A stretch of 64,000 nt of DNA from a virus. The notes below the pieces were generated by a model, which saw nothing but the letters and a program-made list of their open reading frames with translations, made no database searches and was not told the origin of the DNA. How positions within the stretch are numbered: position 1 is the stretch's first letter; each line of letters starts with the position of its first letter. The stretch is from the IMG/VR virus record IMGVR_UViG_3300042549_009448, positions 62,001 through 126,000 of that record. One strand, 5' to 3'. The position numbers and the translations under genes are program-made. Positions 2,683 to 29,370 of the stretch are shown here, piece after piece.

Positions 2683-3048
2683 TTACTTAGGCATTTTAGC
2701 CATGCTAGGCTCAACTTTCTTGTTGATAGCCTTTCCTTTGATAACCAATTTAGCCATCTTAGGTTCAACTTGTTTATTAATCGAACTACCTTTAGAAGTA
2801 GGTAATTTAGAAGTTTTTACATCAACTGATTTGCTGATTGCTTTACCTTTACCTTTAGGCAGGCCTGCCATTTCCGGTTTAACTGATTTGCTGATTGCTC
2901 GACCATTTCCTTTAGGAAGATCTGAAGTTTTAGCGTCTACTGACTTGTTAAACTTAGAACCTTTACCTTTAGGCATGTCTGCCATGTGTTGATCGATTGA
3001 CTTCTTTTCAAAAAGAAATTCGCCGTAGCTTAAAACTGATTTGCTCAT
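2683..3048 (-). CDS. Basic 19-residue-repeat internal head protein with capsid-targeting motif
   Basis: 121 residues, strongly basic. It begins MSKSVLSYGEFLFEKK, a close match to the T4 internal-protein targeting peptide, with cutting predicted after the E of LFE. The rest is about five copies of a 19-residue repeat of the form V-x-x-K-M/T-x-x-L-P-K-G-K-G-x-x-I-S-K-S, with little hydrophobic core. By analogy with T4 IPIII and related basic internal proteins, a DNA-associated packaged protein is likely. A late-type box lies 36 nt upstream. Confidence 0.65.
   Translation of the reverse strand: MSKSVLSYGEFLFEKKSIDQHMADMPKGKGSKFNKSVDAKTSDLPKGNGRAISKSVKPEMAGLPKGKGKAISKSVDVKTSKLPTSKGSSINKQVEPKMAKLVIKGKAINKKVEPSMAKMPK
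2690..3010 (-). repeat. About five 57-bp in-frame repeats
   Basis: Degenerate tandem repeats of about 57 bp (19 codons), with recurring tttaggcaggcctgccat-like and gatttgctgattgcttt-like segments. They encode Lys/Gly/Ser-rich repeats. One unit is a codon shorter. Confidence 0.75.
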
Positions 3049-3167: not shown

Positions 3168-4889
3168 TTAGTAAGAAGCAGAAGGACGGTTTGAACCAGT
3201 CAATACACCTAGACCGTCAACAGTCAATGTGATGTATTGTGTTTCAGGGTGCCATCCAGCCTCAGTGATTGCATAACGAGACTTCATACCGATCTTAGGA
3301 GAGAAAGTTCCCTCTGCGATAGTTTGAAGAGACTCAGCCATGATGTAAGGTAAGAATTTAACACCTGGTTCTTCGTCAGCACCTTTACGTCCGATGTGGA
3401 TACGGTTATCGCTGAACTTCAAGTTAGGATCTACGTAGATGGTTAAACCGTGTACTTTACCTGCAGGATATAATTGACCTGGAGTAGAAGGTAGATCATT
3501 ATTGAATGGAGCAAAAGAGTAACCAGCAACATCAGCAAGAGCAGATGCAACACGACCATTAGTCACGATGTAAGTACCAGCACCAAAACGACCTCTATGA
3601 TAAATCAAGTTAGCCATTTCAAGAATTTTGGTTACAACACGACGTTGTAGTGTTGAGATGTTCTCGAAACCAGTTGAACCTACAGTTAGGTTAAGGGTAC
3701 AGATGTCAGCACCTTCAACCGCTTCAAGAGAAGTTTTGTGAGTAGCTCCTAAAGTTAATACTCTGTCAACCAATTTCTTGTTGATAGATTGAGCAAGTTC
3801 GTTAACTGCTACGTTTTCCAACATAGAGATTACATCGAAGTTCCAAACTCTGTTAAGATCTTGGATTTGCTCAACTGTTGCAGAGATAGCAATTTGGTCG
3901 CCTTTAGCCTCGATGAACTTAGTGAACATACGAAGACCCATTTGACGGAATTTAGAAACCTCAGCTGTAGCACGAGTCATTCCATCGAAGTTAGCTTGAG
4001 AACCAGTAGCTCCTAAGAAAGGACCATCAAATGCAGTTGATGCATAGTCAGCATCACTTTCTGAAGTGAAACCAGAGATATGGTTTTCTAGTGCAGATAC
4101 CAAAGTAACTGTCATACCATCAGCACCTCCGAATCCTAACCAAGGATTAGCCGTTGTACCAGCAGCAGCGGCACTAGTATCAGTACGAGTACCTGTGCGA
4201 GTAACGTTATCAAGAGCAGCAACCGCATCAGCTACTGTAGTAGTAGATGAATCAGTTGTTCCACCTTGAACCACTTTAAGGATTGGTAAACCGTCTACAC
4301 GAGATTTTCCAACGTATTGGAATTTGAATGCAGCAGCCGCATTACCAGTATCACCTTGGATATAATCACCTATTGTGATACCTGTATTGACTGCAGAAGA
4401 TAATTTAACTAAGAACGGCTCATATTGAGTGTCTAAATTACCACCTTGGTATACATAATCCAAATAAGGTAAGAAACCTACTGGAGAATCCATAGGAACT
4501 ACACCAACTAGGTCGAAACCAATAGTTTTAGCAGCAACTTGGATAGCCACCGGTAAAAGGCTTGGGAATTTATCACCAGAACCTGATACGCTTGCGCCGT
4601 AACCTGCTTTAGTAGCACCACCACCAGTGAACGGAGTCATTCCGCTAGTAGGAGCAGAGATTGCACCCATTGCGCTGATTGAACCCGGTTGTTGCAGGAA
4701 CAAACCTGGAGCTGAACCTGAAGCTAATGCCTCGTTTAATGAACCTGCGTTATCGAAGATAGCATGGTTGTGAGCTAAGTCAACTAACCAAGGACGAGCT
4801 TTAATGTCTGCGCCATAACCTTCTAAAACTGGAGCCCATGTTTCTTTGATTGAAGCATCGTTCAATCTTTTGAAAATTTTTGTTGCCAT
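3168..4889 (-). CDS. Major capsid protein (gp23-like)
   Basis: 573 residues. It shows the T4 gp23 pattern of a Gly/Ala-rich N-terminal arm followed by the conserved region containing AAKTIGFDLVGVVPMDSPVG and FLPYLDYVYQGG. The C-terminal end has FSPKIGMKSRYAITEAGWHP. The subunit assembles the icosahedral head. Directly upstream is the protease-scaffold gene (20 nt gap), as in T4 where 21-22-23 are adjacent. A candidate protease site, PVLE followed by GYG, lies near residue 24, but the true maturation site cannot be fixed. The gene has its own strong terminator. Confidence 0.92.
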   Translation of the reverse strand: MATKIFKRLNDASIKETWAPVLEGYGADIKARPWLVDLAHNHAIFDNAGSLNEALASGSAPGLFLQQPGSISAMGAISAPTSGMTPFTGGGATKAGYGASVSGSGDKFPSLLPVAIQVAAKTIGFDLVGVVPMDSPVGFLPYLDYVYQGGNLDTQYEPFLVKLSSAVNTGITIGDYIQGDTGNAAAAFKFQYVGKSRVDGLPILKVVQGGTTDSSTTTVADAVAALDNVTRTGTRTDTSAAAAGTTANPWLGFGGADGMTVTLVSALENHISGFTSESDADYASTAFDGPFLGATGSQANFDGMTRATAEVSKFRQMGLRMFTKFIEAKGDQIAISATVEQIQDLNRVWNFDVISMLENVAVNELAQSINKKLVDRVLTLGATHKTSLEAVEGADICTLNLTVGSTGFENISTLQRRVVTKILEMANLIYHRGRFGAGTYIVTNGRVASALADVAGYSFAPFNNDLPSTPGQLYPAGKVHGLTIYVDPNLKFSDNRIHIGRKGADEEPGVKFLPYIMAESLQTIAEGTFSPKIGMKSRYAITEAGWHPETQYITLTVDGLGVLTGSNRPSASY

Positions 4890-4908: not shown

Positions 4909-6900
4909 TTAGTTTTGTGCTCTTCTTTGGAGCATTTCAATGTAAGAATTAGAGTAGCCTCTTAGTCCTTCATTGACTTGTTTTAACGAGACATAACCTT
5001 CTTTACCTTGGTTTTCGTTAATTGTTTGATTATTTATATTTGCTTGAGTCGCAATTCTTTCACTAATTCCTCTAAGATTACGTGAATCCCAGAAGGCTTT
5101 AACTTGGTATGGAGTGTTCAACGCCATATTATTAGCTTGTGCTGAAATCCAATTTTTTTCACCGTCTGTCATGCTTTCGTATACTTCTTTGTATTGAGCA
5201 GGCATGAATTTAACGTAGTTAGGAGTGTTTTCAACCTGCTTGTTAAGAACCGCTTCCATGATATTAACTACTTCGTCTTCTGTGAAGAAGATAGCACCTC
5301 TCATTGTCTCAACGATTGCGGTTTTAGACGTTTGATCTAAGTTATAGAAAGCCTGTTTTCTAGATTCGCTTAACAGCTTCAAGAAAGGATATTTGCTTTC
5401 TAAAATTGCGTGAGCTGTATTGGATTTAATATGAGTTAAGATACCGTCAACTGCATTAACTAGATCATCTACTGATGAAGTTTCAGAGATTTCAAAATTA
5501 GCACTTTCATTTAATTTTTTAACCTCTCCCAATAGAGAACGTGTTTTAGCGGTTGCTCCAGGAATCATTTTTTCATTTAAAGATTCAGCAATATAGCTAG
5601 AATACTTGATACCTTTATCTAAGTTTTCTCCTAAGTAGTTAGAGTATTGGATTGTTGCATCAAGATTCTCAGCTAAGTAGTTAGAGAATTTGATTCCATT
5701 TTCAGCGTGTTCTGCAACGTGCTCAGCATATTGAATGCTTAGGTCAACGTTCTCAGCTAAGTAGTTTGTGTACTCTACTGTTTTTTCAACGTTTTCTGCA
5801 ACGTATTCAGCATAGTTAGCTGTTTCATTTACTTTTTTACCTAAGTAATCAGAGTAGGCAATGTTCTTTTGAACTTTGTCTCCCAAGTAGTCAGAGTAGT
5901 CAATTACATTGTTTACTTTTTCTGCAACATGCTCAGTGTAATTAACACCCTGATTCATCATAGTTGAAAGATAGTTAGTGTATTCAACTAGGCTTTCCAT
6001 TTCGCCAGCTAAGTAGTTTACGTACTCAACCATTTTCGAAACTACTGGTGATTCATCAGTTGAAGCGTTTTCAGAGATCTTTTGAAGACCTTTATTGTTT
6101 TTGGAGATGCTCTCTTGTAAAGTTGAAAACTTCTTTTTAACCAATTCAGAGTATTGGTTCATCTCGTCTTTTGTTACAAACTCATTAGCCATTTGCTGTG
6201 TATTATTTTGTTTAGGGGTTGTTTCAGAATTATTTATTTTATAGATTCTCACAGAATCTTCAAAATTGAAGTTTTCAGAAATATCCATTAATTTGTTGGT
6301 AATTGCCGTAGTCTTTAGATTATCTAAAGATTCAAAAATCGCTGAGAAACTTCCTTGTAGGCTTTCAGATACCTGAGATAACGAAGCTTGTGAGAAACCG
6401 GGTTCAGCTACTAGATCGTAAGTGAATATCTTATGTAGTTTAACCTTACCGTTCTGATCAACATTACCTGCTGCTCTAGATGATACTGATGTTGTACAGC
6501 CAGCTTCAACTAAAGTCTTTGCGATCTTTCCGCATGGAGTATCAAGAAGTCGTAGTCTAATCTTTACGCTGTTGGAACCTTCATCGTAACTAAGACTTTC
6601 GATTACGTGAGATACGTTAGCTAAGGAAATATCAAATTTTTGTGGATGATCAAGTTCACCAAAGAGTCTGCGCTCTTCAATCTTCTTGTTTAGATACTGT
6701 AGGTGAGGTAAGTACTCATTCTTTTCGTATACACGGTTATTTTCGTTTACGACTCCAAAAACGGCAGCAGTACCTTCAAGAATAACGTCACCGTTAGATT
6801 CTTTGGTTACAGTAACGGCCTCGTTAATTCTTTCAATGATAAACACCGAATTTTCAGGAATGACCGTTTGGTTTAGGTTAGCGATTTTAGTACTACTCAA
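4909..6900 (-). CDS. Prohead protease (gp21-like) fused to coiled-coil scaffold (gp22-like)
   Basis: 663 residues, two proteins in one. Residues 1 to about 190 match the T4 gp21 serine protease: GELDHP places His at 85, and CTTSVSSRAAG places Ser at 138-141, close to the T4 gp21 His85/Ser140 catalytic pair. The region with YDLVAEPGFS follows. From Met237 (MANEFVTKDEMNQYSEL) the rest is a highly charged, coiled-coil scaffold, including 11 exact-length 14-residue repeats at residues 291-444. In T4 protease and scaffold are separate genes. Here an internal late-type box and an ATG at 6192 could also yield free scaffold. The protease should mature the capsid and cut tagged internal proteins. Confidence 0.88.
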   Translation of the reverse strand: MSSTKIANLNQTVIPENSVFIIERINEAVTVTKESNGDVILEGTAAVFGVVNENNRVYEKNEYLPHLQYLNKKIEERRLFGELDHPQKFDISLANVSHVIESLSYDEGSNSVKIRLRLLDTPCGKIAKTLVEAGCTTSVSSRAAGNVDQNGKVKLHKIFTYDLVAEPGFSQASLSQVSESLQGSFSAIFESLDNLKTTAITNKLMDISENFNFEDSVRIYKINNSETTPKQNNTQQMANEFVTKDEMNQYSELVKKKFSTLQESISKNNKGLQKISENASTDESPVVSKMVEYVNYLAGEMESLVEYTNYLSTMMNQGVNYTEHVAEKVNNVIDYSDYLGDKVQKNIAYSDYLGKKVNETANYAEYVAENVEKTVEYTNYLAENVDLSIQYAEHVAEHAENGIKFSNYLAENLDATIQYSNYLGENLDKGIKYSSYIAESLNEKMIPGATAKTRSLLGEVKKLNESANFEISETSSVDDLVNAVDGILTHIKSNTAHAILESKYPFLKLLSESRKQAFYNLDQTSKTAIVETMRGAIFFTEDEVVNIMEAVLNKQVENTPNYVKFMPAQYKEVYESMTDGEKNWISAQANNMALNTPYQVKAFWDSRNLRGISERIATQANINNQTINENQGKEGYVSLKQVNEGLRGYSNSYIEMLQRRAQN
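5569..6030 (-). repeat. Eleven 42-bp (14-residue) coiled-coil repeats
   Basis: Eleven consecutive units of exactly 14 codons, pattern [VI]-x-Y-[ST]-x-[YH]-[LV]-[AG]-E-x-[VL]-x-x-x, from Val291 to Lys444. Two heptads per unit fit a long continuous helical scaffold. Unit length is invariant though the sequence has drifted. Confidence 0.88.
6231..6239 (-). promoter_or_regulatory. Internal late-type promoter for separate scaffold product
   Basis: AAATAAATA on the minus strand inside the fusion gene, about 39 nt upstream of the in-frame ATG at 6192 (Met237). It could drive a scaffold-only transcript. The spacing is longer than for most such boxes here. Confidence 0.35.
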
Positions 6901-6920: not shown

Positions 6921-6930
6921 TTATTTATAC
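6921..6930 (-). promoter_or_regulatory. Late-type promoter for protease-scaffold and capsid genes
   Basis: GTATAAATAA on the minus strand, 21 nt upstream of the protease-scaffold ATG. It contains a perfect T4 late box TATAAATA. Confidence 0.65.
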
Positions 6931-6964: not shown

Positions 6965-7858
6965 TTATTTATTAAAGTCGAGTAGCAAGTCTTTTAAAAT
7001 CTGTAGTTTTTCTTCACTAATTTTTGAAAAATCCGGCTTGGTCACAATTATCTTGAATACGTAATTGCCCCTATTGCCGAAGGCTGAAACCAGTCCCTGA
7101 TTGGGTATTCTGACAGTAATGTCATTAAGGGTATCCCGATTGAATGATTTTATTCGATATTTCTTACCTAATTGACTCTCAAGTAAGGTCTCTTCATTAA
7201 ATAGTACATCATGTAAAGACAGTTCAATTCGTTGAATAAGGTCGCTTTGGTCAATCGCAATCCCTAACATGTCAATATTTACTCTAACAATAAGATCTCC
7301 AGTTACCACCATTTTTCTAGCCCTGCCGAAAAAATCAGTTTCGTTTGTCTCTTGTACAGAACCTCCGCCCCTAACCTTTAGTAAAATGCAGTACCTGCCA
7401 TTTTCAACGGTGATTGGATAGCCGTTCTCTGCTAGGTTTACTAATACCTTTACCGTCTTCATTTCTGTGCCAGTTGAACCTCCCACGTTTTTAGTTATTG
7501 AATACTGAACTTCAAAAGAGGTTCCTTCCATTACCTCTTTGATTGAAGCCCATTTATCAACAGTATGAGTTAGATTCTTGAAATTAGAACGATTTCCGCC
7601 AAACGAAAAATCATGAAAACTATCATAGAAGCTATTGTGCTGGCCTCTCGGTCCACGACCAGCATCATACTGCTTACGTTTAGTTGCATTACCTAGAGTT
7701 TCATAGGCTTCTGCAATCTCTTTGAACTTATCTTCAGATTCCTTACTTCCGCCGTTTTTGTCAGGATGATGTTCGGTCACAAGCTTACGATAAGCCTTTT
7801 TAATTTCATCTGGCGAAGCAGTTTCTGCAACTCCCAACGTTTCATAATAATTTTTCAA
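6965..7858 (-). CDS. DnaJ-like co-chaperone
   Basis: 297 residues. The J domain (about 1-68) has [24 protein letters not shown]-type helices I-II and the essential HPD motif in [12 protein letters not shown]-like linker follows (about 70-95), then a beta-rich C-terminal substrate-binding region without the Cys zinc-finger repeats, so it is CbpA / type II-like. J proteins stimulate Hsp70 ATPase, so it would recruit host DnaK. Placed directly upstream of the capsid-protease operon, it may help fold head proteins. The start is supported by the canonical N-terminus. Confidence 0.85.
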
Positions 7859-7949: not shown

Positions 7950-10055
7950 GTGAAAACCGTATTATTTACATATTATTCAAATCCTGTACAGGATATTTTT
8001 CTAGAGAATGTCGAGTCTATCCTTAGGAACAGTCAGACAGATTACGATGAACTTGTGATTTGTTCTCAAATTGAAGTGCCTTTGAAGCTTGTAATTTTTT
8101 TATCTAAAAAATGTAAAGTAACTAGAGTTTTTCCAAACTACATGTCTCAACAAATAAAAAAGGAAAACTCACAATCCAATCAGTACAAAATCGACCCTTT
8201 CATATTTAGTGCGCTTTCCTACATGGACGCGATCGTTACTGTGTTCGATCCTCACCTATTCATACTTAAATCAATTCCAGCATATTCTGACCGAAATATT
8301 TTTTATCGAACGCACAACGGCTTAATATGCCCTCATCTTTTCACAATCGTTAATACTGAGGCTACTTCCAAACTGATATCTGCTGCTATTACTGGACCAG
8401 ATCTAGTTAGCGATATTGGAATTAAAAAGTTCACTTACACTCTAACAAATGGAGTACGGTTCAGTTCAGATTCAATCTATGACAAGTTTGTAGTCTTCGA
8501 TAACCCGGATCAGTCAGATCCATTACTTGTAGATCGGCTGCTTGCCTTAAATTTTAGAGAAACTTCAACCTCTCAAGACATTCACAAGCAGATGTTTGCG
8601 GTCCGAAAGACTGGGCTTCCTAAAGTATCCACCCTAACTAAGATAAAAACAAAAGCGACCGATACTATATTTGCAGCATTCAGGCAAGATATAAAATCAG
8701 ATTCACCAGATTTAACCGAACTTAATCCAACCATTCTATTTAAGTATTTTCCAAACGGCGAAATCCAATCTACTAAGGCTCGCATTTTAGAAATAATTGA
8801 AAACTGTAGCTGTCATGAATATTGGATAGTTGGAAACATGAAGTCAAGTGATCCTCTATTTGTGGAATTTTCTAATCAAATTTCATCAATTGACTCGGAT
8901 AAGATGATACGATCGTTAGATGAATTGGAAACTTCTGGAAAGACTTGGGACATTGTCTACGATTTATCTAGTTCGACCGGGCCCTTGACCAAAGGATTTG
9001 ATACGGAAATTCGACACAGCTACCTTAATTCAATATCATCATTTAATAAAACGACAAAACCTCAATCAAATTCAGTCGACCTAACTGAAGCACCTGCGGT
9101 AGAAACCAAAACTTCTAATTTTCAATTTTTATCAAAAATTAAAAAATCAGAAGAACGAAAATCATTATCTCAACTACTGATTAGTTATTACTCTGATTTT
9201 ACATCGAGTGGATATTACCGAGCGTTTGCAATGCAGCTCATTAAGAAATGTGACGAGTTTAAGATTAGTTTTGATATTTCTGAGCTCTCTCCTCGAGGCG
9301 GATATGCAGCAAACTGTCTCATGAAACCTGAATTCATTTTGGCTAAAATGATGACTCATAAAAGAGGCGTTATATGGATGGATTGCGATACTGATTTTAG
9401 GGAGCCGTTCAGCGAATTCAATAATCTTTTTCAAGATATTGGATTAGCTACTCACAGCGGAGATATGAATGGAATACAGGCATCTCCGGTTTTTTTAAAT
9501 TACACAGAGGATGCTTTTAAAATCGTAAGAGAGTGGATCGTACACTGCAATTCCGCGTTTGAGAAAGGAATTCCTGAACTAGATCATGATGCTCTGAAAC
9601 ACTATGTTCTTGAGAAATTAAATGGACAATATAGTGTATTCTTACTTTCTGATAATTGGCTGGATTTTGTAAATGGCAAATACATAAATAACGGTAATAG
9701 TGAAATTCCAGGAAAGGACAAAATCCACCAAGCAGTTCAGAGCCTAACTCATCAGGCTAGATGGAATCTATCAAAATCTGTCAAAACTGTTGTGATCAAA
9801 ATATCTGAGTCTGAACCTGATCCAATTAAGTTAGCCTATTCTGCTTTACTTAATTTTTCAAATCATAGTCGACTAAAGATATACTTGCCAATCCAACAGT
9901 TAACTCAATCAAGTGACGAAATTACTCGTTTAAAAATTGAGTCAGGTGGCGCGATTTATTATGGCCAAGCCTCTTTATCTGAAAATGAGGTTTTAATAAA
10001 CATTGACGCCAATTCAAATTTACAAAAAAATTGGGATAAACTATATGCACATTAA
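7950..10055 (+). CDS. Large two-domain glycosyltransferase-like protein
   Basis: 701 residues, GTG start. The N-terminal region (about 1-220) begins MKTVLFTYYSNPVQDIFLEN and looks like a GT-A-type fold. The C-terminal region (about 400-700) has a DxD-type metal/sugar-nucleotide motif in GVIWMDCDTDF and later ATHSGDMNG and LDHDALKHYVL, as in nucleotide-diphospho-sugar transferases that recognise small glycans. A Ser/Thr-rich linker joins them. The substrate is unknown. It heads the plus-strand glycan operon, and the next gene starts inside its last codons. Confidence 0.6.
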   Translation: MKTVLFTYYSNPVQDIFLENVESILRNSQTDYDELVICSQIEVPLKLVIFLSKKCKVTRVFPNYMSQQIKKENSQSNQYKIDPFIFSALSYMDAIVTVFDPHLFILKSIPAYSDRNIFYRTHNGLICPHLFTIVNTEATSKLISAAITGPDLVSDIGIKKFTYTLTNGVRFSSDSIYDKFVVFDNPDQSDPLLVDRLLALNFRETSTSQDIHKQMFAVRKTGLPKVSTLTKIKTKATDTIFAAFRQDIKSDSPDLTELNPTILFKYFPNGEIQSTKARILEIIENCSCHEYWIVGNMKSSDPLFVEFSNQISSIDSDKMIRSLDELETSGKTWDIVYDLSSSTGPLTKGFDTEIRHSYLNSISSFNKTTKPQSNSVDLTEAPAVETKTSNFQFLSKIKKSEERKSLSQLLISYYSDFTSSGYYRAFAMQLIKKCDEFKISFDISELSPRGGYAANCLMKPEFILAKMMTHKRGVIWMDCDTDFREPFSEFNNLFQDIGLATHSGDMNGIQASPVFLNYTEDAFKIVREWIVHCNSAFEKGIPELDHDALKHYVLEKLNGQYSVFLLSDNWLDFVNGKYINNGNSEIPGKDKIHQAVQSLTHQARWNLSKSVKTVVIKISESEPDPIKLAYSALLNFSNHSRLKIYLPIQQLTQSSDEITRLKIESGGAIYYGQASLSENEVLINIDANSNLQKNWDKLYAH

Positions 10056-10899
10056 AGGAATCGGACTTCCATTTCCAGCCGAATACTCATCATGTTCAAA
10101 TTTATCAACCGCTAAGTTTGAGTGGACAACCTCAGACTCAAATACTGTAGTCTATATAGACGATTCAATTGAACAAGGGCTCCTTACTCCATCTGCCGTT
10201 GGAAAATACGGATGGCTATGTGAATCTAGGCAAATTTGTGATTCAATCCATTCAAAAATATTAAATGATTTGCCAAAATACAAAAAGAGCTTTCACAAAA
10301 TATTTACATGCGATGAATCCCTTTTAGGTGATCCATTTTTTGTTTACTGCCCACCTGGTTCCAATTTACCGTGGACAAAGCCGGAAGAGATGAAGCTTTA
10401 CGAAAAGACTAAGGTCTGTTCAATGATATGTTCGCCAAAGGCTAGAACCCAAGGCCACATGATTAGGTTACAGGTCGCAGCTCAACTACAGAATCACCTA
10501 GATCTTTTTGGAGGAGCCCACGGCTCTCAAAGAATAGGTGAAGGTTCTGGGCCAACTGGCGACTGGTGGAGATCGAAATTGCCAGCCTTGAAAGAATATA
10601 AATTTTCAGTAGTTTTTGAAAATGCGGTTTACGATAAGTATTACACTGAAAAAATAACAGACTGTTTTGCTACTGGAACGGTTCCAATTTATTGGGGAAC
10701 TAGGAAAGTTAGTGAAGATTTTAATCCAGAAGGAATAATCTTTTGGGATGAATTTAAGGGAGTCGACTCGTTAACCTCAGAATTATATGAATCTAAATTA
10801 CCTTACATACAAGAGAATCTAGCAATAGTAAAAAGCCTTGAATCAGCGGACGACTTTCTCTTTTCAAAAATACAGGCCTTAGGTAAAAATGATGATTAA
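10045..10899 (+). CDS. GT10-family fucosyltransferase-like enzyme
   Basis: 284 residues from ATG at 10045, overlapping the previous stop by 11 nt. The longer frame from 10003 is less likely. The C-terminal domain has the GT10 (alpha-1,3/4-fucosyltransferase) signature: YKFSVVFENAVYDKYYTEKI followed by CFATGTVPIYWGT. These are the GDP-fucose-binding and acceptor-site region of the family. Expected reaction: transfer of L-fucose from GDP-fucose to a glycan. Acceptor and linkage cannot be told from sequence. It sits with several glycosyltransferases and a second, unrelated fucosyltransferase (GT11). Confidence 0.85.
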   Translation: MHIKGIGLPFPAEYSSCSNLSTAKFEWTTSDSNTVVYIDDSIEQGLLTPSAVGKYGWLCESRQICDSIHSKILNDLPKYKKSFHKIFTCDESLLGDPFFVYCPPGSNLPWTKPEEMKLYEKTKVCSMICSPKARTQGHMIRLQVAAQLQNHLDLFGGAHGSQRIGEGSGPTGDWWRSKLPALKEYKFSVVFENAVYDKYYTEKITDCFATGTVPIYWGTRKVSEDFNPEGIIFWDEFKGVDSLTSELYESKLPYIQENLAIVKSLESADDFLFSKIQALGKNDD

Positions 10900-11554
10900 C
10901 TGTATTTTAACAATACCGTATTTTAAATCTATATCGAATCTTCGAAATCGTGAATTCCTAATATGTTTAGAACACAATATAAATAATCCAGCGATTGATG
11001 TAATAATTTTACTCTGTGAAACTCCTCCATCGAATATAGACATATTAAATGATCCAAAAATTGTGATAAAAATATTAAAGGCCCGACCTACTTATCATGA
11101 AGCTTTTACAATATCCCAACGTTATAGAAAAAGAAAGATTAAAAGGGCTTCTAACTGCTTAATAATCGTCGCAAACGGTGACATCATCTTCGATGAAGCT
11201 GTTATCTCTAAGGCCTTTTCTAGGATTGGAAAGAATATTGCAATTGCTTTATCTAGATGGAATTTAACTCTTACTTCAGATCTTACGATTGACGCAGAAT
11301 TGCATGACTGTTGGGATAGTCAAGACTCCTGGTTTTTTCTTAATCAAATAAAGCGCGGAAACTTTAAGTTTAAGATTGGGATTCCTGGCTGTGATAATCG
11401 ACTTGCTCATGAGTTATCCGTTAGCAAATACCGTGTCATAAATCCAGCAAAGAGCCTCATTACCAAACATTTACACCTGACTGATTTTAGAACATATTCG
11501 AATTCAACTGTTCGAATTGAACCTCCATATAAATTTATTAGCCCAACTGAATAA
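10889..11554 (+). CDS. Glycosyltransferase-like protein
   Basis: 221 residues, overlapping the previous gene by 11 nt. It shows a GT-A-like layout with IVANGDIIFDEAVI in the position of the DxD-containing strand, then ALSRWNL, DSQDSWFF and PGCDNRLAHEL. This pattern occurs in phage and bacterial proteins of unknown acceptor. The C-terminal KHLHLTDFRTY block resembles the same group. Likely part of a common glycan assembly path with its neighbours. Function beyond sugar transfer is not inferable. Confidence 0.6.
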   Translation: MMINCILTIPYFKSISNLRNREFLICLEHNINNPAIDVIILLCETPPSNIDILNDPKIVIKILKARPTYHEAFTISQRYRKRKIKRASNCLIIVANGDIIFDEAVISKAFSRIGKNIAIALSRWNLTLTSDLTIDAELHDCWDSQDSWFFLNQIKRGNFKFKIGIPGCDNRLAHELSVSKYRVINPAKSLITKHLHLTDFRTYSNSTVRIEPPYKFISPTE

Positions 11555-11555
11555 T

Positions 11556-12209
11556 ATGAAACTTGACTTACATAAAGTTACCGCGATCTGCATAGACGGC
11601 CGTCAAATGGAGCCGGCAATTATCGACAAATACCGAATCATCATAAACTACATGATGTCGACTATTGATTTTTACGAAATTAAGTTTTTCGGAACGGTCG
11701 ACCCGGAAATTCCAGGACTAAATTTCACTAAAATCGATCAAATGAGCATTGAAGGATACTCTAAATTTTGCATATTTGATTTAGTAAAATTTGTAGATTC
11801 TGAATACTGTCTCATTTTTCAGGACGATGGATTCGTTGTAAATCCTGAACTTTGGGATGATGATTTTTACAATTACGATTGGATAGGTTCTCCATGGCCA
11901 CTTTACATGGGTTGGCCAACGATTGGCCATCAAGTAGGAAACGGCGGATTTTCGTTAAGAAGCAAAAGACTATTGGAATTAACTTCAACTTTCACAGATT
12001 GGGCAGGTCAGAATGAAGACGCCTTCATCGTAAGTTCAAAAAAATCAGTGCTTGAATCAAACGGTCTTAAGATTGCACCAGTCGAAGTTGCAACTCGCTT
12101 CTCGGTTGAAAATGAAATGACTTCTGACCATGGACTCCACACCGTTTTTGGATTTCATGCAAAAAATAAAATGGACTTAGCCCTCGAAAAAATAAAACAA
12201 AAACTATGA
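11556..12209 (+). CDS. DUF5672-type glycosyltransferase-like protein
   Basis: 217 residues from ATG at 11556, 1 nt after the previous stop. This start is chosen over the earlier in-frame one at 11517. Features: LIFQDDGFVVNPELW (acidic metal-binding-like strand), YDWIGSPWP, then VGNGGFSLRSKRLLEL and NEDAFIV, with an FSVENE block near the end. This order is typical of DUF5672 proteins often found next to glycosyltransferases. It overlaps the next gene by 4 nt (ATGA), implying translational coupling. Confidence 0.7.
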   Translation: MKLDLHKVTAICIDGRQMEPAIIDKYRIIINYMMSTIDFYEIKFFGTVDPEIPGLNFTKIDQMSIEGYSKFCIFDLVKFVDSEYCLIFQDDGFVVNPELWDDDFYNYDWIGSPWPLYMGWPTIGHQVGNGGFSLRSKRLLELTSTFTDWAGQNEDAFIVSSKKSVLESNGLKIAPVEVATRFSVENEMTSDHGLHTVFGFHAKNKMDLALEKIKQKL

Positions 12210-12940
12210 TAAAGACTTTAGCTTACTATCCAATTCATTATGGAGCAGAATATTTGGATGCTTCAATAAAATCAATTAACGATCACGTTGATAAAATTGT
12301 AATTCTATACACTCCCAAGCCCAGTTATGGCTATGGAACCCAATTGGTTTGCCCAGAGACCGAGTCAGAAATTCGTGAAATTGCACAAGCTGCCTCAACT
12401 AAAGTCCATTGGATCAACACTGATGGCTTAGGTAATGAAGGTCAACATCGAGGTTTGGCTTGGAACTTTGCTCCAGGGTATGATGTTATGCTAGCGGTCG
12501 ATGCTGATGAAGTTTGGGAACCTTCCTCTTTGGAACAATGCATCAAGGAAACGTATGAAGGTACGTCTTGGAGGCGAAACGTAAACGGTTTTGTCAACTT
12601 TTGGAAATCTTTTGATTGGGCATGTTATGATGGGTTTCAACCAGCTAGACTATTTAACATAAATAAAAATAATCAAATTGAAGAATCTATTAATGGAACA
12701 ATCTATCATTTCGGATATGCTCAATCTAAAAAAATAATGGATTACAAATTTGAAATTCACGGGCATAAAAACGAAATAAAACCAGGCTGGTTAGATAATA
12801 CTTATTACGCTTGGCAACCTGGAGATAAAGATATACATCCAACGTGTACAGTATGGGGAGAAGCCGTTGCTTTCGATAAAAATACCCTGCCTGATGTTTT
12901 GAAAGCCCATCCAAATTTTAATAAAGAAATAATATCATAA
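12206..12940 (+). CDS. GT2-like glycosyltransferase
   Basis: 244 residues. The N-terminus MIKTLAYYPIHYGAEYLDASIKS and the motif MLAVDADEVWEP (DxD with flanking acidic residues) identify a GT-A glycosyltransferase of the type acting on nucleotide sugars. A Trp/aromatic-rich second half may bind acceptor. Starts within the previous stop (4-nt overlap). Confidence 0.7.
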   Translation: MIKTLAYYPIHYGAEYLDASIKSINDHVDKIVILYTPKPSYGYGTQLVCPETESEIREIAQAASTKVHWINTDGLGNEGQHRGLAWNFAPGYDVMLAVDADEVWEPSSLEQCIKETYEGTSWRRNVNGFVNFWKSFDWACYDGFQPARLFNINKNNQIEESINGTIYHFGYAQSKKIMDYKFEIHGHKNEIKPGWLDNTYYAWQPGDKDIHPTCTVWGEAVAFDKNTLPDVLKAHPNFNKEIIS

Positions 12941-12956
12941 AAAAATAATTTAACTT

Positions 12957-13604
12957 ATGAGAAGTATATTAGTTGGAATTCCAGTAATTTATTGTGAAGA
13001 TTGTGTTTACCGATGTATTAACGCAGTAGAACCACAAGCTGATGAAGTTTTTATTATTGATAATAATTCAACAATCGGTATTAAAGAAATAATTTCAGGT
13101 AAAAATGTTTTAACTAATTCTACTAATGTATTTGTTAATCCGGCATGGAATCAAATAATGGAAAAGTTTTTAACCTCAGCCCACGATTACTTAATCATAT
13201 TAAATTCAGATTTGGTTTTAAAGCCTGGAATTCTAAATAAAATTAGAGAAACTGATATTGATTATGAAAAAACCATTATGCTGCCAAATCCAGTTAATGA
13301 ATTTTCAGTTAATCCGCCTAATACCGTTGATGAAATTCCTGGAGGTTTTCCTGGAATTATGATCGTTTTATCAAAAGAAATGTGTAAAGCAGTTTATCCA
13401 ATTCCAACTGGCTTAAAATTATGGTTTGGAGATGACTGGATTTTTGGTAAACTTAAAAAATTAAATTACTCATTAAATATCTATTCAGAAATGGAGGTAA
13501 TTCATATTAATGGAGGTAGCCGTAGTATTTTTAATTTACCTAACTATACTGACATAATTGAGGAAGATAAAGTGATTTGGGAAACTGTAAAAAATCTAAT
13601 TTAA
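12957..13604 (+). CDS. GT2 glycosyltransferase
   Basis: 215 residues. GT2 hallmarks: MRSILVGIPVIYCEDCVYRCI, then VFIIDNNST, NPAWNQIMEKFL and LIILNSDLVLKPGIL (the NSD motif equals the DxD site), with GDDWIFG as the second acidic motif. First of three genes that are clearly more A+T-rich than their neighbours, suggesting separate acquisition. Confidence 0.75.
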   Translation: MRSILVGIPVIYCEDCVYRCINAVEPQADEVFIIDNNSTIGIKEIISGKNVLTNSTNVFVNPAWNQIMEKFLTSAHDYLIILNSDLVLKPGILNKIRETDIDYEKTIMLPNPVNEFSVNPPNTVDEIPGGFPGIMIVLSKEMCKAVYPIPTGLKLWFGDDWIFGKLKKLNYSLNIYSEMEVIHINGGSRSIFNLPNYTDIIEEDKVIWETVKNLI

Positions 13605-13606
13605 TT

Positions 13607-14380
13607 ATGATTTCTTGTAATATATACGTTGATAATCAGGAAATAATTAATTATCCGATTTATGAAATTATACAAAAACTAGACTTTATAGACTATATTT
13701 TTATATATTGTGGCGATCAAATTAGTCATGATATTATACAACAGTTAGTAAAGGATCCACGTATTACAATTGAAATCATTAATTTTAAAATTAGACAACC
13801 TGATGATATTGCAATCGCTCAAAATATGTGTATTGAATTAACTAAGAAAAAGGTAAATACTGGCTATATTTTAATATTACAAGCGGATACTCAAATAACC
13901 CCAGCCGGTAAACAGTATATATTGGAGTGGATTGCTAATCCAACTGGTCCAGCAATTTCATTTATTACACAGCACGTTAAATTATATATTGAGACATACA
14001 CTACTAATTGGGGCGCTGATTTAATTGAGATAAATGCAATAAATCGGTATATTGGTGATGGAGCGTATTTGTCACCAAACCCTGATACCTATGGGGAATC
14101 TGCTGGATTTATAGATATTGGATACATGTCATCTGATATTTGGTATAAGAAAATAAAACAGCATAGACTAACTTGGAATAGTGAGGCCGGCTTAGCTCAA
14201 CAGACTCTGTATGAAACTGATAAAGACCGATTTATTTTAGAAATGGGCAAATACCTAACTGAATCACATAATGACGTTAGAACCTTTATTGATATTAATA
14301 ATCCAGTATGGTTAGATGCTCTTACTTCTATGAATTTACTCGATGATTATTTATATACTAAAAAACTATTAGAATTATGA
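13607..14380 (+). CDS. Glycosyltransferase-like protein (A+T-rich block)
   Basis: 257 residues from ATG at 13607, just after the previous stop. The frame is open from 13577 but that start would overlap. Contains YILILQADTQITPAGKQYI at the GT-A DxD position. The second half carries WNSEAGLAQQTLY and an acidic, aromatic tail. A+T-rich like its two neighbours. Overlaps the next gene by 4 nt. Sugar and acceptor unknown. Confidence 0.55.
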   Translation: MISCNIYVDNQEIINYPIYEIIQKLDFIDYIFIYCGDQISHDIIQQLVKDPRITIEIINFKIRQPDDIAIAQNMCIELTKKKVNTGYILILQADTQITPAGKQYILEWIANPTGPAISFITQHVKLYIETYTTNWGADLIEINAINRYIGDGAYLSPNPDTYGESAGFIDIGYMSSDIWYKKIKQHRLTWNSEAGLAQQTLYETDKDRFILEMGKYLTESHNDVRTFIDINNPVWLDALTSMNLLDDYLYTKKLLEL

Positions 14381-27798: not shown

Positions 27799-29370
27799 AT
27801 GAAGTTTGAAGAATTAACAAAGGACGAAGTCCAATCAATATCAGACCTTTACTGGAATAAAGATTTAAGTTGGGATACCCGAATGAAACAGCTAAGCGAA
27901 TACATTGGAAAATCCGAAAGAACTGTTCAAAAATGGTTAGCTAAGTTATGCATAACCGAGAGCGCGGTTCAAGAATCTCCGCAGTTAATAAAGGCTCGCG
28001 AACGTAAGTTCAATAAGAAAAAGAAACGATTCATTATCACCTGGGCTCAAAATGATACCCCAGCTCATGAAGAATTCATTTCTAATCTTGAAGTATACGC
28101 TCAATACATAGATGCAGACATCCATGTCATTGCTGGCAGATATAAAAACCCAACCTCAGTATTCTCTGATAAGAATTACGAAACCTGGTCAGAAAGAATC
28201 TCTGCCTACCTAGATGCAAATCGCCATGAAGTTCACAAGCACATGTGGATCATGTCAGACGTTAAGATTCAGCCAACTGCTGTTGATCCAATGACTGGCC
28301 TACAGGGCATGAGCGGCATTAATTCTTGCGTGTTCGGCTCTCCTAAAGTTCATTTGGAAACTATTCCGGTTTTGGAAGGTAACTTACCGAAGATGATGAT
28401 GACTACTGGTGCCTGCACAGTTAAGAATTACACCGACTCGAAATCCGGTAAAAAGGGAGAATTCCACCATACACTCGGTTTTGTCGTTGTTGAGATAAAG
28501 GATTCAACTACCTTTTTTGCTCGTCAAGTGACCGCAACTGATGATGGAGACTTTACTGACCTATTTAACAGAGTTAATTACAATGAGGACCGTGAACAGA
28601 GTGAAATTTCAAAAGTTACGTCGGTGGCAGCAGCGATTCTTGGAGACCTTCACTACGGTCAACACGATGAGAGGGTAATCAAAAAGACACTAGAACTTTT
28701 TGAAAAACTTCAACCTGATAACGTTATTCTACATGATGTGTTTGACGGACTTTCAATAAATCATCACGAAAGCAAGGATCCATTCATTCAATACCAACGT
28801 GAAGTGGACGGCTCCAATTCCCTAAAGAAGGAAGTTGATGCAATGTTGACTGGCCTAGAGGCTTTTTCAAAATACAATGTGTCAGTTGTTCGCAGCAATC
28901 ACGATGATTTCTTAGATCGTTGGTTAAAATCAACTGACTGGCGAAAAGCAAACACTCTAAAGAATTCTTTGGAATACATGGAATACAGTGCTCTGCTCTT
29001 GAGGGGAGATGCGCCAAATGGAGTCATTCCTTATCTAATCAATCGTAAGTTTCCGCAATTTAAAACTTTGGGACGTAGCGACAGTTTAGTGGTTAACGGT
29101 TGGGAACTTGCTCAACACGGAGATGTTGGATCAAACGGTTCTAGAGGTTCTCTATTACAGTTTAGAAAGTTGAATACTAAAATAGTCGTTGGTCACTACC
29201 ATTCCCCTGGTCGTAAGGACGGCGCGCTAGCTGTCGGCACTTCAACTAAATTAAGAGTTAACTATAATGTTGGCCCAAGCGGATGGCTCCAATCACATGT
29301 AATCATTCATCATGATAGTAAAGCGCAACATGTTAATTTCATTAAGGGCGAATTCACGACACTATCCTAA
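27799..29370 (+). CDS. HTH - calcineurin-like phosphoesterase fusion
   Basis: 523 residues. Residues 1-50 form a helix-turn-helix (MKQLSEYIGKSERTVQKWL). From about residue 280 the calcineurin-type metallophosphoesterase motifs appear in order: AILGDLHYGQHD, VILHDVFDG, VVRSNHDDF, WELAQHGDVG and IVVGHYHSPGR, giving all expected Asp/His/Asn metal ligands. The middle (about 65-250) is unassigned. The enzyme should hydrolyse a phosphodiester, possibly DNA or RNA, directed by the HTH. It has its own TATAAT-type promoter, suggesting non-late expression. Confidence 0.85.
   Translation: MKFEELTKDEVQSISDLYWNKDLSWDTRMKQLSEYIGKSERTVQKWLAKLCITESAVQESPQLIKARERKFNKKKKRFIITWAQNDTPAHEEFISNLEVYAQYIDADIHVIAGRYKNPTSVFSDKNYETWSERISAYLDANRHEVHKHMWIMSDVKIQPTAVDPMTGLQGMSGINSCVFGSPKVHLETIPVLEGNLPKMMMTTGACTVKNYTDSKSGKKGEFHHTLGFVVVEIKDSTTFFARQVTATDDGDFTDLFNRVNYNEDREQSEISKVTSVAAAILGDLHYGQHDERVIKKTLELFEKLQPDNVILHDVFDGLSINHHESKDPFIQYQREVDGSNSLKKEVDAMLTGLEAFSKYNVSVVRSNHDDFLDRWLKSTDWRKANTLKNSLEYMEYSALLLRGDAPNGVIPYLINRKFPQFKTLGRSDSLVVNGWELAQHGDVGSNGSRGSLLQFRKLNTKIVVGHYHSPGRKDGALAVGTSTKLRVNYNVGPSGWLQSHVIIHHDSKAQHVNFIKGEFTTLS

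Follow-up and report, generated by a model that had tools for sequence, protein, structure and literature searches.

In phage lambda, genes C and Nu3 have a common frame and a common C-terminus. Their overlap is credited to Shaw and Murialdo 1980 (cited in PMC8508860). Herpesvirus UL26/UL26.5 (UL80/UL80.5) brings together an N-terminal protease, an R-type release site and a nested 3' scaffold gene that starts from inside the protease gene (PMC12474303). In T4, the protease gp21 cleaves behind L/I-X-E, with processing of the gp21 C-terminus itself also suspected (PMC9026906), and about 100 copies of gp21 are found to 576 of gp22 (PMC5694885). A search of the open-access literature yielded no description of a nested arrangement in T4-type phages.

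The window analysed here is a stretch of 64,000 nucleotides (bases 62001-126000 of a virus record whose 180,030 bases are a fragment). Its minus-strand ORF at 4909-6900, which has a TTG start and 663 codons (663 aa), very probably represents T4 genes 21 and 22 fused, 22 by position, with a gene-22-type promoter and start inside, so that a polyprotein and a nested, more abundant scaffold would end at one stop; from this arrangement we infer both transcripts, both proteins, their ratio, their co-assembly and their cleavage. The gene and its parts are the following:

4909..6900, minus strand: fused prohead protease-scaffold gene, in the place of T4 genes 21 and 22, directly before gp23 (Pfam S77 over cut-off; gene order compared with T4)
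3168..4889, minus strand: major capsid protein gp23, the next downstream gene (PF07068, E 3e-42)
6364..6900, minus strand: S77 protease domain, residues 1-179 (PF03420, AF2, Foldseek, invariant His and Ser)
6646-6648, minus strand: codon of His85, catalytic and invariant
6481-6483, minus strand: codon of Ser140, catalytic and invariant
6361..6372, minus strand: candidate site of self-release, VSE-S (residues 177-180), where the protease ends (phi-x-E, then A/S/G/N)
6190..6192, minus strand: internal ATG, codon 237, candidate nested scaffold start (conservation, synonymous-constraint peak, A-rich unpaired context)
4909..6192, minus strand: predicted nested scaffold product of 427 aa, with frame and stop common to the full gene
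5569..6030, minus strand: eleven 14-residue units, residues 291-444, all spacings exactly 14, predicted helix
5035..5472, minus strand: C-terminal helical domain, about residues 477-622, from predicted structure, with conserved FMP and YQVxxFWxxRxLR

Head genes on the minus strand follow the order DnaJ-domain protein, fused ORF, gp23, the first of these (6965-7858, minus strand; PF00226, E 2e-26) lying directly upstream of the protease-scaffold gene within the head cluster. Two further minus-strand ORFs, both with no family match, encode a 121-aa protein of short 'LPKGKGxxISKSV'-like repeats (2683-3048) and a 374-aa protein, listed with a TTG start, that has a duplicated acidic segment, 'GPKAPKALGSGEEDDDDDLTQKALPTGP' (1231-2355). 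Adjoining the head genes is an opposite-strand ORF run (7950-14380, plus strand) that includes a fucosyltransferase-type enzyme (PF00852, 10003-10899), and several of its other ORFs are glycosyltransferase-like by eye. A link with bS21 phages (PMC9723584) was considered and set aside, as no S21 gene was found in this record.

The protease part belongs to the S77 family, scoring 40.6 bits against the Peptidase S77 profile PF03420 (curated cut-off 27). Its AlphaFold (AF2) model, with pLDDT about 90, has the gp21 fold: Foldseek placed the T4 gp21 structure first (5jbl, E 3e-8, prob 1.00), followed by the varicella-zoster and pseudorabies proteases (1vzv and 4cx8, E 9e-3 and 2.5e-2, respectively). 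The original prediction had matched the catalytic register to that of T4 gp21, and His85 and Ser140 indeed have identical residue numbers in both proteins and are invariant among 51 aligned proteins.

Protease and scaffold lie in one ORF in all 112 complete relatives fetched, that is, in every complete ORF with conserved protease motifs, each of which extends at least 193 residues beyond the protease core. Two scans of IMG/VR gave 44 loci and then the best 80 of at least 586 confirmed matches; among named genomes, the closest are uncultured huge phages of 462-735 kb and next the Lak phages. In this large group of mostly uncultured giant phages, protease and scaffold are read from one gene, and 'prohead protease' annotations overlook the scaffold gene across it (at least 586 confirmed matches). 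In T4, other T4-like phages and PA5oct the genes are unfused and in the same order, 21-22-23, and in phage PAU, too, protease and scaffold are encoded apart from each other. Long fused ORFs are also found in SP-15, Lak, Tenacibaculum phage pT24 and Chryseobacterium phage MA9V-2, where we saw no 14-residue array and no convincing candidate for an internal start, indicating that fusion alone does not require one. The MA9V-2 ORF (L155 2911-6534) encodes 1207 aa, nearly twice the usual length, and has a late-type box inside.

The portion after the protease is predicted to be helical, comprising the repeat array and the C-terminal domain, and it lies between the protease and gp23, the place of gp22 in T4. 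It gave no match to phrog_237, and hhalign returned a probability of 0.2 for homology with T4 gp22; nor did phrog_237 reveal a separate gp22 elsewhere in the 180,030-base record, itself a fragment. In BFVD the C-terminal domain matches phage prohead protease/scaffold proteins exclusively, and no fold match for it was found in the PDB. Of the claim that gp21 and gp22 functions are joined in one frame, the fusion stands, with one correction: the scaffold probably works like gp22, but as no sequence homology was detected we call it gp22 by position only, not as a homologue.

We then considered whether the scaffold could also be made on its own. An in-frame ATG is present at, or at most 3 residues from, codon 237 in 54/54 dereplicated relatives, down to about 30% identity, and these starts share the stop of the full gene. 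The corresponding Met column is kept in 50/55 alignment rows amid variable neighbouring residues, and the one other strongly conserved Met column is within the folded C-terminal domain. The linker around the internal ATG is otherwise variable, and disordered in the model (pLDDT <50 for residues 225-248). Synonymous sites are the best test of an internal start, because protein function does not constrain them, and they reveal nucleotide-level selection both at the start and at the boxes described below. Among 60 near-clade pairs of <85% identity, no window of the ORF was under stronger constraint than codons 237-245; a second peak at codons 621-635 coincided with the capsid-gene box, and codons 221-229, where the internal box lies, were also high. 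With the near clade excluded (136 pairs of other relatives), constraint peaked at codons -14 to 0 before the ATG, the strongest window being codons -11 to -3 (z 4.6, rank 1/569 windows), in a zone of elevated constraint from about -15 to +3, the p-values being indicative only since the sequences are related and non-independent.

As another source of constraint, an overlapping same-strand ORF was rejected, the longest such frame being 19 codons; on the antisense strand, frames without a stop reach 106 codons but show no conservation of length. The internal ATG has a context with a higher A fraction (0.61 vs 0.39) than that of other in-frame ATGs and is more often unpaired (0.63 vs 0.46), with the qualification that the linker protein is Lys/Asn-rich, so A-richness is expected and partly a by-product. 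In Bacteroidota, the host phylum that we infer from related phages, initiation is helped by a low degree of RNA structure and by A's at certain upstream positions (PMC6847099), and the context fits Bacteroidota initiation without a Shine-Dalgarno sequence. The original prediction named lack of conservation of this region as an initiation site among its refuting conditions; the 54/54 ATG, the constraint peaks and the excess of boxes spoke strongly for conservation.

As a T4-type late promoter we took an 8-bp TATAAATA box with the A(-13) variant allowed, T4 itself having A(-13) at nine listed late promoters (PMC2988020). Boxes of this type are present at the locus, the AATAAATA form differing from TATAAATA by one base on the coding strand:

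6966..6973, minus strand: second upstream late-type box, AATAAATA, kept in the near clade
6922..6929, minus strand: TATAAATA box of late type ahead of the protease start (P21), 21 nt from box end to TTG
6231..6238, minus strand: internal late-type box AATAAATA (P22), within Lys-Ile-Asn-Asn codons
5031..5038, minus strand: TATAAATA box of late type ahead of the capsid gene (P23), situated within the fused gene at its 3' end, with 149 nt to the MCP ATG

The predicted late-type box was thus confirmed at 6231-6238, together with the ATG at 6190-6192. From box start to ATG there are 46 nt here and 46-49 nt in 8/8 near-clade lineages, and the Ile222 codon is ATA in 12/12 sequences against a usage of 13%. 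In the region -90..-12 of the internal ATG, 21 boxes were observed vs 4.7 expected by synonymous resampling, and 10 vs 1.15 within the near clade, although the lineages are related, so that box and start counts are not independent events; for sigma-70-type promoters the count was 12 vs 7.2 expected, an uninformative difference. All eight near-clade lineages carry NATAAATA boxes before both the protease and the scaffold starts, and 6/8 (all except L029 and L077) carry one before the capsid gene, about 1150 nt further along. Across this genome, 38/78 NATAAATA boxes are intergenic, intergenic sequence being 10.5% of the total, and the intragenic ones are 32 sense and 8 antisense. The genome also has a gene for a gp55-type late sigma, at G000 28141-28560 (phrog_234, E 1e-17). 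Many distant relatives have no NATAAATA box upstream of the internal ATG; the case for promoter-driven expression is therefore strongest in the near clade and that for translation initiation extends to the whole group, and a nested product in the boxless relatives would depend on ribosomes starting within a longer transcript or on a promoter of another type.

These data bear on another reading, in which the gene is a plain fusion of the P2 gpO type that makes only the full-length protein, with a protease on every scaffold copy and release by self-cleavage, Met 237 being just part of the scaffold N-terminus. P2 gpO is a working protease-scaffold fusion (PMC7552001), 54/54 relatives have a release motif (phi-x-E, then A, S, G or N) in the stretch from protease core to internal Met, and no clear internal start is seen in the fused ORFs of SP-15, pT24 and Lak. 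Against this reading stand a Met 237 kept amid varying neighbours, synonymous-site selection there in two independent data sets, a box upstream of it in every near lineage and the fixation of ATA, a less used codon, for Ile222, and we consider it unlikely.

A second reading would have the nucleotide conservation mark only an element that serves downstream genes, either a promoter, such as an extra one for gp23, or a site of RNA processing, with no translation start at all. T4 mRNAs can undergo processing, and a box-like motif does lie upstream of the ATG. Against this, the capsid gene is preceded by a box of its own (5031-5038), conservation in the near clade runs into the first scaffold codons (237-245), in the distant clades it stops at the ATG, both as at a start site, and the internal start region has no Rfam family match, all of which makes this reading very improbable.

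The start codons point the same way. The candidate protease start, 19-21 nt past the upstream box, is TTG in 6 and GTG in 2 of the near-clade lineages (8/8), and ATG in the more distant L081; the internal scaffold start is ATG throughout. A protease start weaker than the scaffold ATG is what one would expect if protease were needed in smaller amounts than scaffold, as in T4. Together with ATG and box conservation and synonymous constraint, this TTG/GTG vs ATG contrast upholds the proposed stoichiometry device, a putative internal start that has a late-type promoter to itself, and with start and boxes located, control of stoichiometry can be tested feature by feature. In T4, the gene 21 stop TAA lies inside a TATAAATA box 35 nt before gene 22 (L053 5083-5090 = NC_000866 104082-104089). 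In the fused gene, the box at the gene-22 position is read in another frame and contains no stop; a frame change at this box could have fused the genes with the promoter retained.

Under the nested-gene model that we favour, the full-length protease-scaffold (663 aa) would be made from the weak TTG, with a late promoter just upstream, and the scaffold-only protein (427 aa) from the internal ATG, for which the near clade would have a separate late promoter, 46 nt upstream. Present in excess, the nested scaffold would co-assemble via the common helical part with the minority full-length protein, and the latter would carry the protease into the core of the prohead. Once the shell is assembled, the protease would release itself at VSE-S and degrade the scaffold at repeated [LIV]-x-E motifs. 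The density of [LI]xE is 4.4 per 100 aa in the scaffolds vs 1.7 in shuffled sequences, that is, 2.6 times denser, and most repeat units carry a motif of the [LIV]-[AG]-E type. Since most units hold one [LIV]-x-E type motif, we predict that the rod could be cut into 14-residue peptides. It is possible, though somewhat doubtful, that the rod is pre-scored for removal, being cut by the linked protease into short peptides that leave the prohead, and that the nested gene sets the protease:scaffold ratio via promoter and start-codon strength, which would place a UL26/UL26.5-like switch within the T4-type head module that very large phages have.

Heads are very large in the phages whose genomes are the largest known. 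The original prediction saw in the repeats a possible length ruler. The eleven uninterrupted units are present as described, at residues 291-444 with every spacing 14, in a region where AlphaFold confidence is low. The family consensus is I-x-Y-S-E-Y-L-A-E-N-L-D-K-x and the profile (n=631 units) I-x-Y-[ST]-E-Y-[LIV]-A-E-[NK]-[LV]-[DN]-K-x, with a unit spacing of 14 in 527/577 and the remainder mostly 21, 28, 29, 42 or 49. Every near-clade lineage has 11 units, on contigs up to 270 kb; nearly all units match their own counterpart best, with identities of 0.71-0.73 between orthologous and 0.36 between non-orthologous units, so the array is old and fixed there. Outside the near clade there are 8 to 15 units, with L107 (2 units) as the single outlier. 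The subclade of L047, L049 and L052 has a shortened repeat array followed by long acidic E/D-rich segments, recalling the Lak acidic region.

A molecular ruler for head size, which would be compatible with the nested start, agrees with the constant 11 units throughout the near clade and with a weak rise among the five repeat-bearing huge genomes, from 10 to 15 units over 462 to 735 kb, a trend that is not significant (Spearman 0.7, p 0.19). However, unit number (8-15) does not track genome size: genomes of 429-462 kb have 10 units and contigs of about 240-270 kb have 9-11, the sizes of several IMG/VR contigs being lower limits since these are possibly incomplete, and Lak-A1 (541 kb) and the cultured pT24 (235 kb) have the fused gene with zero units. 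Near-clade units, moreover, are one-to-one orthologues and not interchangeable copies. We thus regard a ruler as very unlikely.

Among described systems, T4 21-22-23 agrees with the locus in gene order, protease family and fold, and box layout, the boxes before the scaffold and capsid genes standing at 46 and 149 nt here and at 35 and 142 nt before T4 genes 22 and 23. In T4, however, genes 21 and 22 are separate, with the gene 21 stop in the gene-22 box, and gp22 has no sequence homology to the scaffold described here. The phrog_207 head maturation proteases, such as that of Bacillus phage SP-15 (568 aa), are likewise S77-like and encoded by a long ORF adjoining gp23; the profile match to the window protein is limited to the protease part and linker (residues 26-270), and SP-15, unlike the window gene, has no 14-residue array and no clear internal start. 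P2 gpO also holds protease and scaffold in one protein (PMC7552001), a source that describes no nested late promoter, and P2 is not T4-like.

With its predicted short product, the gene would work like lambda C/Nu3 and herpesvirus UL26/UL26.5. Lambda likewise has a protease gene with an overlapping in-frame scaffold gene, but its gpC is annotated as an S49-family peptidase (PMC10695390) whereas the protease here is S77, and unlike lambda this gene has a T4-type late promoter within it (near clade) and a scaffold with 14-residue repeats. Herpesvirus UL26/UL26.5 shares the order of protease, release site or motif and nested scaffold, about 57 residues separating release motif and internal start here, as well as a protease fold match. 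It differs in that the scaffold here is of a different, phage type and the promoters are late-sigma boxes, and there is no evidence that the nested layout was inherited from a common ancestor. By placing a T4-type protease in a UL26/UL26.5-like arrangement, the gene would link head assembly in T4, lambda and herpesviruses.
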